Origin: Carbonactinospora thermoautotrophica | Lineage (GTDB): Bacteria > Actinomycetota > Actinomycetes > Streptomycetales > Carbonactinosporaceae | NCBI RefSeq assembly: GCF_001543895.1 | Contig: NZ_JYIJ01000018.1 | Coordinates: 124,001-188,000 of the forward strand | Length of the DNA: 64,000 bases | Reading direction: 5' to 3' | Shown: positions 59,812 to 63,435 of the stretch, piece after piece | Numbering within the stretch: position 1 is the first letter of the stretch | Layout of the letters: each line of letters opens with the position of its first letter | Notes under the pieces: model-generated | The model's input: only the letters and a program-made list of their open reading frames with translations | Databases searched by the model: none | Told to the model about the DNA's origin: nothing | Made by a program: the position numbers and the translations under genes

Positions 59812-59911
59812 GAGTTCTCCCCGATCAACCCGCTTTCCGGGCGAGTCTGCAACCTCAACTTGACTGATATGAGTCGTCCTGCCCCGGTGCGGGGCAGGAC
59901 GACTCATCGTG

Positions 59912-61048
59912 TCAGGCCGGCAGCTCCCAGATCCGCCCGGACTCGTGCCAGATCCACTGGCGCTCGGGGGTGACGGTGATCCCGAACGTCCACGGCCCGG
60001 GCCGCCCGGCCTCGACCCACCAGCGCCAGGTGTCCTCGACCAGGCCCCACAGGTCACGCGGGCCGACGTACGCGGTTTGTTGTTGTGGCATGTCGACCAC
60101 GGCGAGGGACCCGTCGTCGGCCTCCAGCCAGTACGACGCGGACTCGTCCTCGCCCCGCCCCACGCTGGCGTCGGCGTCGATCACCGGCAGGCCCGCCACC
60201 CAGGCCGGGAACCGGTCCCCGATGAACTCCTCCGGGTCGAGCGTGATCGGCCGGGTGGGCGGGTCACCGAACCGCTCGGCCTGGTCCGGCCGGCCGGCTG
60301 GCCGGTGGGCGCGCAGCCGCATGAACGCCACGTCCCTGGCCAACAGCCGCCCGGCCGCGGTGCCGTCGCCGCGCACGTCCAGGCGGACCAGCCCTTGATT
60401 CCCGAACGGGCCGGCCAGCGGTGCCAAGATCAGCCCGCCGGGGCGGGTCTGCTCCACCCACGCGTACGGGATCCACCGCACCGAGCAGGTGGCGATCACC
60501 CGGTCGTACGGCGCGCCGTCCGGCCAGCCGGCCGCCCCGTCGCCGGTCACCAGGCACGGCTTGTACCCGGCCGTGGTGAGCGCCTCGCCGGCGGCGGCCG
60601 CCACCGCCGGGTCGACCTCCACGGTCACGACCTGGTCGTCGCCGAGCCGTGCGGCGAGCAGCGCCGCCGAGTAGCCCGACCCGGTGCCGATCTCCAGCAC
60701 CCGCTGCCCGTCCGATACCTCGAGCTCCTCGAGCATCGTGACCACCAGCTCGGGCATCGTGGCCGAGCTGGAGGGACAGCGGCCCCGGTCCCCGGGTCGC
60801 GCGTCGACCAGGTCGTCGACCTGAGTGACCGGGGTCAGGCGGGCGTCGTAGGCGAGTTCCAGCCGCTGGTCCGCGTCCAGCTCCCGCGCGGTGTACCAGC
60901 CGTCGTCGCCCAGCAGCCAGACCAGCCGGGGCACGAACACCTCCCGCGGCACCGTCTCCACGGCGGCCCGCCACGCCGGATCGGTGAGCACGCCCGCCCG
61001 GACGAGCTGGTCGACCAGCCGTGCCCGGTACGCCTCGATGGAGGTCAC
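59912..61048 (-). CDS. Isoaspartyl-methyltransferase-like enzyme, probable RiPP-modifying
   Basis: A 378-residue protein. Residues about 1-235 are a PIMT fold: REVFVPR near residue 35, SSSATMPELV (93-102, the PIMT signature), SAM motif I LEIGTGSG (118-125), VVTVEVDP and the GDGAAGWPDGAPYDRVIA strand. About 140 extra residues follow, a C-terminal extension found in PIMT homologues that modify ribosomal peptides. Ordinary PIMTs (about 210 residues) repair isoaspartate; homologues in lanthipeptide, graspetide and imiditide loci methylate Asp to make aspartimide. GTG 61048 overlaps the stop of a 47-residue peptide gene. No other RiPP enzyme is nearby. Confidence 0.85.
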   Translation of the reverse strand: MTSIEAYRARLVDQLVRAGVLTDPAWRAAVETVPREVFVPRLVWLLGDDGWYTARELDADQRLELAYDARLTPVTQVDDLVDARPGDRGRCPSSSATMPELVVTMLEELEVSDGQRVLEIGTGSGYSAALLAARLGDDQVVTVEVDPAVAAAAGEALTTAGYKPCLVTGDGAAGWPDGAPYDRVIATCSVRWIPYAWVEQTRPGGLILAPLAGPFGNQGLVRLDVRGDGTAAGRLLARDVAFMRLRAHRPAGRPDQAERFGDPPTRPITLDPEEFIGDRFPAWVAGLPVIDADASVGRGEDESASYWLEADDGSLAVVDMPQQQTAYVGPRDLWGLVEDTWRWWVEAGRPGPWTFGITVTPERQWIWHESGRIWELPA

Positions 61049-61188
61049 TTCTTCTGGCCTTCCCCGCGCCAGGTCTTCCCCTGACCCTGGTCCTTGTCCT
61101 TCGGGATCTTCACGTCGGTTTCCTTCGACCCGCGGTGCCCGTCCGGGGTCGCCTTGCCCAGGTTCACGTCGCCGCTGTGCCGGCCCAT
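61045..61188 (-). CDS. Basic 47-residue peptide, candidate imiditide precursor
   Basis: The peptide starts at ATG 61188 with GAGGAGA five bases upstream and reads MGRHSGDVNLGKATPDGHRG to about residue 20, then a Lys/Asp-rich part ending in GEGQKK. It has 11 Lys/Arg and 7 Asp/Glu, no cysteine and only one aromatic residue. Asp16 is followed by Gly (PDGHRG), the most aspartimide-prone context. The stop overlaps the methyltransferase start (GTGA), so the pair is translated together. This matches the known two-gene imiditide layout of a positively charged precursor and a PIMT homologue. Confidence 0.75.
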   Translation of the reverse strand: MGRHSGDVNLGKATPDGHRGSKETDVKIPKDKDQGQGKTWRGEGQKK

Positions 61189-61294
61189 GTTTCTCTCCTC
61201 AGCCACGTCAGAGCCGGTGCCGCCGCTGATCGTGGCACGATTCGACACGGTCCGCCCACGCTTGTCGCAATCACGCCAGCCCGGGGAAACAAAA

Positions 61295-61326
61295 CCGCCC
61301 GGTCCCTCACACGAGGGGCCGGGCGG
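61295..61326 (-). terminator. Hairpin with U tract upstream of the peptide gene
   Basis: CCGCCCGGTCCCTC and GAGGGGCCGGGCGG form a 14-bp stem (one G-T pair) around ACAC. On the minus strand it is followed by TTTTGTTT, a proper terminator tail, yet no minus-strand gene lies behind it in the window. It could therefore act as an attenuator in the leader of the peptide-methyltransferase unit or end an antisense transcript. Confidence 0.65.
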
Positions 61327-61369
61327 CTCTCTGCTGTTTCCAGGGAGATCGCTACGACATACCCTGAAA

Positions 61370-61466: not shown

Positions 61467-62705
61467 GTGGCCCATATCGAGATCGACGCCGCCGATGTTG
61501 GCCGCCGCATCCAACGGCGCCGCGAACAGATCGGCAAGAGCCGAGCGACCGTCGCCGGGCTCTGCGGCCACGGCGAAAGCTGGCTGAAGAAAATCGAACG
61601 CGGCGAACGCTGGGTGTCCCTGCCCGAGCTGTACCGGCTCGGTGCCGTGCTCGAGGTGCGTGACCTGTCCGAGCTCACCGGGGGCGGTATCCCGAGCATG
61701 ATTACCGCCCGCCCCACGCATCCGGACCTGCCTACGGTCAGGGACGCGATGATGAGCGTGGATGCGGTCACCGCCGACCGTGAGCCGGCTGACGTCACCG
61801 ACCTGCGCCGCCAGCTCGACGACGCGTGGCGCACCTGGCACACCTCACCCACGCAGCGCTCCGACGCTGCCGATGTCCTACCCGGCCTGATCGTCGACAT
61901 GCGGCACGCCGCCCGCGTCTACGACGGCACCGAACGGCGCCGCGCGCTCACGCTGCTCTCCGAGACGTACCACCTCGCTCAGGCGTACCTCGCCTGGCAG
62001 TCGAGCCCGGAACTGCTGTGGATGAGCACCGACCGCGCGCTGACAGCCGCCGAGCAGGCCGATGACATGTTGGCCTTGGCGTCCGCGGTCTGGTACTACG
62101 CGCACGCGGTACGCGCGGTCGGCGAGGGCGAGCGCGCGACCGAGATGGTCGTGACGATGGCGGAGCAGATCGAGCCGCGGCTTGAGAGGTTCGACGGGCC
62201 AGACTTCGTTGAGCATCTGGCGATGTGGGGAACCCTGTATCTGTGCGCCGCGCTGACCGTCGCGCGGGCCGGCGACTCCGGCGACGCGTGGCGGTACTGG
62301 GACCGCGCCGACTCGGCGGCGCGCAGGCTGCCGGACGGATACGCGCACCCGTGGCACATGTTCGGCCGCGCCAACGTCGACCTGTACGGGGTGTCGATCG
62401 CAGTCGAGCTCAACCACCCCGAGGAGGCGCTGCGACGAGCCCAGGACATCCGCCTGTCGTCGATCCCCTCACGTGAACGGCGGGCCCGGCACCTGATCGA
62501 GCTCGCGCGCGGCTACCACCGCGACGGCGACCAGCTCGGCACGGTGAACATGCTCAAGCAGTCGTACGAGGTGTCACCGGAGGTGCTTCGGTACAACGTC
62601 ATCGGCCGGGCGATGCTGCGCGACCTGGTGCGCAAGGGCCGGGCAAGCGTCCGGGACGACGTCGAGCGGCTGGCGGAGGAGACGGGCGTGCTCGTCGACG
62701 TGTGA
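61467..62705 (+). CDS. XRE-family helix-turn-helix regulator with TPR-like domain
   Basis: A 412-residue regulator. Residues 8-65 form the HTH (GRRIQRRREQIGKSRATVAGLCGHGESWLKKIERGERW), the remainder is helical with TPR-like repeats (ALTLLSETYHLAQAYLAW, AAEQADDMLALASAVWYYAHA, and more). Such regulators are common in actinobacterial mobile elements and biosynthetic loci. GTG 61467 is preceded by GGGAGG with six bases spacing. It is divergent from the methyltransferase unit and may control it or the small genes downstream. Ligand unknown. Confidence 0.88.
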   Translation: MAHIEIDAADVGRRIQRRREQIGKSRATVAGLCGHGESWLKKIERGERWVSLPELYRLGAVLEVRDLSELTGGGIPSMITARPTHPDLPTVRDAMMSVDAVTADREPADVTDLRRQLDDAWRTWHTSPTQRSDAADVLPGLIVDMRHAARVYDGTERRRALTLLSETYHLAQAYLAWQSSPELLWMSTDRALTAAEQADDMLALASAVWYYAHAVRAVGEGERATEMVVTMAEQIEPRLERFDGPDFVEHLAMWGTLYLCAALTVARAGDSGDAWRYWDRADSAARRLPDGYAHPWHMFGRANVDLYGVSIAVELNHPEEALRRAQDIRLSSIPSRERRARHLIELARGYHRDGDQLGTVNMLKQSYEVSPEVLRYNVIGRAMLRDLVRKGRASVRDDVERLAEETGVLVDV

Positions 62706-62999: not shown

Positions 63000-63247
63000 C
63001 CATCCCTCCACAGCAGAGCCCCAACGGCCACGTCACCCACTTCCCGCCGGCCCCGCCCACGCTGGAGGAATACCTGCAGGGCATCCGCGCCGGCGCGCAG
63101 ATCCAGAACCCGACGTTGCAGGACCTGCTCACGTACAAGCAGTGGACCGGCCTGCTCGCCGGCCTCGTCGCGAACCTGCTCGAAACCCACCCTGCCATCC
63201 GGCCCAGCGTCGAAGCGCACGCCCGCACGTGGGGGTGGCGAGGATGA
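62996..63247 (+). CDS. Small protein 2 of the mobile-element-like unit (83 residues)
   Basis: An 83-residue protein starting at GTG 62996, coupled to the 55-residue gene. After a Pro-rich start, EEYLQGIRAGAQIQNPTLQDLLTYKQWTGLLAGLVANLLETHP suggests a helical domain. No family is recognised. Its stop overlaps the next start (ATGA). Confidence 0.6.
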   Translation: MTIPPQQSPNGHVTHFPPAPPTLEEYLQGIRAGAQIQNPTLQDLLTYKQWTGLLAGLVANLLETHPAIRPSVEAHARTWGWRG

Positions 63248-63435
63248 CCGGGCAGACGTCCTCATCCGACATCGCCGTCAACCCGGCCGACCCGAACTGC
63301 GCCACCTGCCGCGGCAAGGGCAAGGTCATCGGCCGAGACGGGCGGGAGTGGCGCTGCACTCCATGCTCGGTGCGCTTGAGCTACGAGACCGAAGCCCGCA
63401 TCGGAGCGAACCCCCATGCGCCAGCCCAGTCGTGA
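63244..63435 (+). CDS. Small zinc-ribbon-like protein (63 residues)
   Basis: A 63-residue protein with two CxxC pairs: CATCRGKGKVIGRDGREWRC then CTPC, a likely zinc ribbon of about 25 residues. Proteins like this are frequent in actinobacterial integrative elements and may bind nucleic acid. ATG 63244 overlaps the previous stop; its stop is followed by the start of the next frame 20 bases inside (63416). Confidence 0.65.
   Translation: MTGQTSSSDIAVNPADPNCATCRGKGKVIGRDGREWRCTPCSVRLSYETEARIGANPHAPAQS

Follow-up and report, generated by a model that had tools for sequence, protein, structure and literature searches.

Imiditides, or type I pamtides, such as those of the NmaA–NmaM and SpaA–SpaM systems, require only a precursor peptide and a RiPP-associated PIMT homologue (PAMT), whose substrates are linear peptides (PMC13001092, PMC10787088). 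The imiditide/pamtide class has more than 1,400 predicted members, and Pro makes up about 17% of reported type I precursors. In other RiPP classes, the PAMTs favour substrates that are folded or cyclic. In the graspimiditides (group 13 graspetides, e.g. fuscimiditide and amycolimiditide), an ATP-grasp gene lies between the precursor and PAMT genes. In the cysimiditides (type II pamtides), the PAMT is the primary modifying enzyme and two CxxCxGxG motifs surround the Asp.

The window considered here (the whole 64,000-nt stretch of Carbonactinospora thermoautotrophica DNA that was analysed, ending at C18:188000) carries a two-gene locus (Table 1) that is probably an imiditide locus with a linear precursor, a candidate whose chemistry is predicted. 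Similar to NmaA–NmaM and SpaA–SpaM, it consists of two genes only, which encode a short, basic, Cys-free precursor with a conserved Asp beside Gly and a PAMT with a C-terminal domain and a WXXXGXP motif. Unlike in these systems, the precursor is poor in Pro (2/47), rich in Lys and Asp, and contains a GxTW segment common to its paralogue, while the enzyme occupies a separate deep branch and an ATP-grasp cassette is found near the pair. The locus shares with cysimiditides a PAMT as the primary modifying enzyme, but its precursor has no Cys and hence neither of the CxxCxGxG motifs.

Table 1. Positions of the features discussed; plain numbers count from the first base of the window.
Feature	Position	Strand or orientation	Basis or remark
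Precursor peptide gene, 47 aa: MGRHSGDVNLGKATPDGHRGSKETDVKIPKDKDQGQGKTWRGEGQKK	61045..61188	(-)	ORF list, codon bias, paralogue and relatives; ATG start at 61188, 47 codons, TGA stop ending at 61045
Shine-Dalgarno GAGGAGA of the peptide gene	61194..61200	(-)	Sequence
Codon of Asp16 (PDG), invariant Asp, predicted aspartimide site	61141..61143	(-)	Asp16 and Gly17 invariant in 11 aligned precursors
GTGA stop/start overlap of the peptide and methyltransferase genes	61045..61048	(-)	Sequence; such an overlap in 34/51 two-gene loci
RiPP-associated PIMT homologue (PAMT), 378 aa, C-terminal domain, WVEAGRP	59912..61048	(-)	Pfam, NCBIfam, motif, model; GTG start at 61048, end at 59912
Terminator-like hairpin (-30 kcal/mol), then TTTGTTTC	61294..61327	(-)	About 105 nt upstream of the peptide gene
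Inverted repeat directly past the methyltransferase stop, without a T-run	59875..59901	(-)	Read from the sequence
XRE-type (HTH) regulator, divergent	61467..62705	(+)	Identity to regulators of two other two-gene loci
66-aa ORF	C18:188117-188317	Divergent to the peptide gene	About 3 kb off
ATP-grasp gene, TIGR04187	C18:188314-189276	Divergent to the peptide gene	387.8 bits, cut-off 350
Three copies of the ATP-grasp cassette	L137:6118-7277 (window-equivalent 64117-65276); L118:2029-3173; L181:9199-10340		
PIMT homologues of the genome beyond the two two-gene pairs	C12:124217; C18:349771; C17:170739; C19:67848; C18:370153		

The peptide gene and its methyltransferase

An earlier note on this DNA had described a 47-codon gene with a Shine-Dalgarno sequence and a four-base overlap with the gene of a 378-residue methyltransferase, and all of these features lie where it had placed them. 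Codon usage in the 47-aa frame is strongly actinobacterial in character (GC1/2/3 = 0.62/0.46/0.92). Its product is rich in Lys, Gly and Asp, with eight Lys, three Arg, five Asp and two Glu, and its net charge is positive; the 11 basic residues, the absence of Cys and the Asp-Gly pair in PDGHRG, which contains Asp16, agree with the earlier description. By reading, the peptide lacks the P-W/F/Y-G leader motif and the Thr/Asp core of graspimiditides.

The methyltransferase belongs to the PCMT family of Pfam and carries the motifs SSSATMPELV and LEIGTGSG that had been read from it. The long C-terminal extension, also recorded earlier, appears in an AlphaFold model (mean pLDDT 86.8) as an extra domain with the beta-alpha-beta4-alpha arrangement described for the PAMT clade (PMC10787088), and residues 344–350 (WVEAGRP), near the C-terminus, correspond to the WXXXGXP motif described for RiPP-associated PIMT homologues (PMC13001092). 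The closest solved fold is that of Thermotoga maritima PIMT (PDB id: 1DL5), the top Foldseek match of the model, with a VIA alignment that covers residues 7–371 and includes the C-terminal extension, but 1DL5 is not RiPP-associated and is only 19–23% identical to the window enzyme. The motif and the predicted fold together present the features reported for PAMTs. The best NCBIfam model is TIGR04188 (methyltransferase of ATP-grasp systems), with a score of 351 bits, which is under the cut-off of 380 expected of a graspimiditide PAMT. The paralogous enzyme described below scores 363, and six other related enzymes, five of which adjoin small peptide genes and one of which is labelled ATP-grasp-linked (L040), score 257–334, all below the window enzyme.

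The hairpin upstream of the peptide gene, together with its U-tract, spans 61327–61286 on the (-) strand, and the window copy has no preceding gene on the same strand. A similar strong hairpin with a U-tract is found upstream of the paralogous peptide gene (L118, upstream of 7774), and the two might be attenuators. The inverted repeat past the methyltransferase stop might mark the end of the two-gene unit. A search for sigma-70 promoters gave none, and a search for RNA families gave a single match, located inside the methyltransferase gene and far under its gathering score. The divergent XRE-type regulator shares 38–39% identity, along about 400 aa, with regulators adjoining two other two-gene loci. 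The divergent operon also contains a 63-aa ORF (63244–63435, (+) strand) in which a CxxCxGxG motif is followed by DG and then by CxxC, a layout similar to the zinc hairpin of type II pamtides. Its counterpart at L118:3577-3888 is fused to another ORF, and an NCBIfam search with the 63-aa ORF gave no match.

Conservation of the pair and the candidate site

There are five strong homologues of the enzyme in the genome, the window enzyme included. The one at C9:95946-97061 has 61% identity to the window enzyme and shows the same overlap with an upstream peptide gene, the product of which is MGLGRHESGKAKFGQKVNPDGRDDKQEKDVVIKDSKQGTTWHNPDPQQDDK. The window and paralogous peptides align with a Smith-Waterman score of 77 (the maximum of 1000 shuffles is 59) and have GRH, PDG, E-x-D-V-x-I and G-x-T-W in common. 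With a homologous peptide, the same overlap and a closely related enzyme in this second pair, the peptide ORF does not appear to be a chance frame. The three remaining strong homologues sit after ATP-grasp genes. Beyond the two two-gene pairs, the PIMT homologues of the genome comprise three by ATP-grasp genes, one of the lasso type (with PqqD and a macrolactam cyclase) and one that is seemingly of a lanthipeptide locus. The flank of the paralogous locus (L118:9440-11669) contains two tandem IS3-type transposase genes, identical over the residues shown.

Neither gene of the window pair is disrupted, their GC content is biased by codon position, the Shine-Dalgarno sequence is good, the paralogous copy is intact as well, and the pN/pS ratios are below 1 (0.68 and 0.77). 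These observations argue against a decaying or unexpressed locus, which is highly improbable, although at another PAMT-linked locus the ATP-grasp gene (C18:371348-372272) is broken across two frames by a frameshift or an assembly error, so that decay, if it is not an assembly error, does occur in this genome.

The comparison was extended to 51 distinct peptides from this and other genomes, each encoded upstream of a related enzyme and picked by position, length and Shine-Dalgarno sequence, partly by hand. A DG pair is present in 46 of them (29.3 on average in shuffles, maximum 37), an N-terminal MG(x)H in 25 (1.2 on average, maximum 5), and the start codon of the enzyme gene overlaps the peptide gene in 34 of the 51 loci. 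In an alignment of 11 precursors, which were chosen for their resemblance to the 47-aa peptide and include nine from other two-gene loci, G2, H4, D16 and G17 are invariant. Pairwise similarities of the peptides, the paralogue aside, show no clear excess over shuffles. Both comparisons proposed by the earlier note, of Asp-Gly and of the four-base overlap among relatives, are covered by these counts. The note had also raised the matter of a chance pairing; the small upstream gene is kept beside related methyltransferases and the paralogue has the same PDG, so the imiditide reading holds on this point. No relative of the enzyme outside the genome exceeds about 49% identity among sampled genomes of its order, its class and a second order, and in a scan of named species.

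The retention of both Asp-Gly and the small upstream gene in relatives points to Asp16 as the likely site of modification, and this residue is the best candidate that the alignments suggest. Asp25, common to the window and paralogous peptides, is a second candidate; Asp-Val is less prone to succinimide formation than Asp-Gly. In the proposed pathway, the ribosome would make the basic 47-aa precursor, with the PAMT translationally coupled to it. The PAMT would bind the otherwise unmodified linear peptide, probably via its basic residues, and, on the precedent of NmaM and SpaM, transfer a methyl group from SAM to the Asp16 side chain. Attack by the backbone amide of Gly17 would then expel methanol and close an aspartimide ring; hydrolysis of this ring may yield isoaspartate or aspartate. 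None of these steps should need a nearby ATP-grasp enzyme.

The PAMT might instead act mainly on another protein, either a folded small protein encoded locally or a distant substrate, with the 47-aa peptide as a poor or regulatory substrate. The preference of other PAMTs for folded or cyclic substrates and the small ORF with CxxCxGxG, DG and CxxC in the divergent operon are consistent with such a role, but it is quite improbable, as the two genes overlap and the peptide and PAMT are conserved together in relatives as well as in the two copies of this genome.

The ATP-grasp cassette and the place of the enzyme

The earlier note had stated that no ATP-grasp, lanthipeptide or lasso enzyme lies nearby. 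By reading, the ORF list for the final 12 kb of the window contains no other primary RiPP enzyme, and the statement on ATP-grasp is correct inside the window but fails past its edge, where a graspetide-type ATP-grasp gene is found about 3 kb from the pair. It overlaps a small ORF, and this arrangement (an ORF of 66–68 aa with the pattern LSCxPGAxADT...RPRLLAV...IPE overlapping a TIGR04187 ATP-grasp gene) occurs in three copies in the genome. In the paralogous locus, both genes recur at a distance of about 5 kb from the peptide gene and are likewise divergent to it; the ATP-grasp score there is 363.7 bits, which is above the TIGR04187 cut-off as well. The third copy stands alone on C17, with no adjoining peptide or PAMT gene. 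Among 31 other two-gene loci, with flanks of up to 8 kb, none has an ATP-grasp gene. The proximity of ATP-grasp to the pair is real and unusual, and any functional link between them is putative.

In three trees, the enzyme pair of this genome and the ATP-grasp-linked (graspetide) methyltransferases are sister groups, with a support of 100/99 in a careful tree, which was rooted with lanthipeptide-type and more distant homologues, and of 98 in another. An alternative in which all two-gene enzymes are grouped was not rejected in an AU test (p-AU 0.239). Since the test keeps both placements, the branching with graspetide methyltransferases is to be taken as a lead. Together with the ATP-grasp gene past the edge, it means that a cross-linking enzyme could likewise act on the 47-aa peptide.

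Such a split graspimiditide system, in which the ATP-grasp enzyme, helped in trans by the product of the 66-aa ORF (a partner or leader), would link Lys, Ser or Thr to Asp or Glu of the 47-aa peptide before the PAMT acts on the cross-linked product, is unlikely. The divergent ATP-grasp genes of both loci, their absence from the other two-gene loci and the sister position of the PAMT all agree with it, and leader-dependent RiPP enzymes can be activated in vitro by a leader supplied in trans (PMC13003496). The 66-aa ORF resembles a graspetide leader (LDxxT...D..GRP), but a profile of the leaders of 17 precursors collected in this analysis gives it -0.4 bits, under the shuffles (maximum 6.7), and the leader assignment was rejected as unsupported; neither peptide has the P-W/F/Y-G motif by reading, and the solitary third cassette also counts against the split system. 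Furthermore, dS between the window and paralogous loci is 0.21 for the ATP-grasp gene, 0.47 for the PAMT gene and 0.85 for the peptide gene, which suggests different histories of the three modules, although conversion could blur these values: PAMT residues 127–176 form a conversion-like tract with 92–93% nucleotide identity. Duplication of the cassette and the pair as one block was considered and set aside: the dS values disagree, and conversion-like tracts blur the comparison.

Similar to the locus described here, graspimiditides have a homologous PAMT, on the nearest branch of the trees, and an ATP-grasp gene in the vicinity, and in their collected precursors the leader and core meet at an MGKH-like motif and most cores contain DG. 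Unlike theirs, the ATP-grasp gene here is on the opposite strand and outside the pair, and the 47-aa peptide has no Thr-rich/Asp-rich core. In PAMT-linked graspetide precursors (L120, L133, L017 and others), EMG[KR]HG is frequent at the leader-core junction, and two-gene precursors often start with MG[KR]H. The idea that the 47-aa peptide is homologous to graspetide cores, for which the MG[KR]H resemblance is visible, was rejected, as the core profile gives 2.2 bits, within the shuffles. An MG[KR]H-type motif might be a recognition motif common to both kinds of precursor, for which the profiles lend no support of homology.

A natural hybrid of imiditide and graspetide, in which the leaderless 47-aa peptide would be cross-linked by the divergent ATP-grasp enzyme and the 66-aa protein in trans and then aspartimidylated by the PAMT, is distinctly unlikely, and cross-linking by the neighbouring enzyme remains a minority reading beside the linear imiditide, which is the most likely one. 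The points against the latter are the Pro-poor precursor, the branching of the enzyme with ATP-grasp-linked methyltransferases, the nearby cassette and, beyond the paralogue, pairwise peptide similarities that stay close to the level of shuffles. The earlier assignment to imiditides with Asp16 as the likeliest site is therefore sustained in part: the conserved pair and the retained Asp-Gly favour it, while its premise on ATP-grasp was wrong past the edge and the tree grouping is with graspetide methyltransferases.

Relation to imiditide and graspetide chemistry

The locus is a good candidate for a new member of a known peptide class. Its enzyme is divergent and branches unusually deep, and its ATP-grasp neighbour is unexplained. 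It adds a divergent pair of candidate imiditide loci, in a genome that is the sole member of its family among those compared. The nearby ATP-grasp gene bears on whether imiditide and graspetide chemistries ever combine other than in one leader-core precursor. The enzyme itself may mark the point at which two-gene imiditide enzymes and graspetide-tailoring enzymes split, and its branch position, if it holds, points to an enzyme acting on linear peptides as the ancestor of graspetide methyltransferases.
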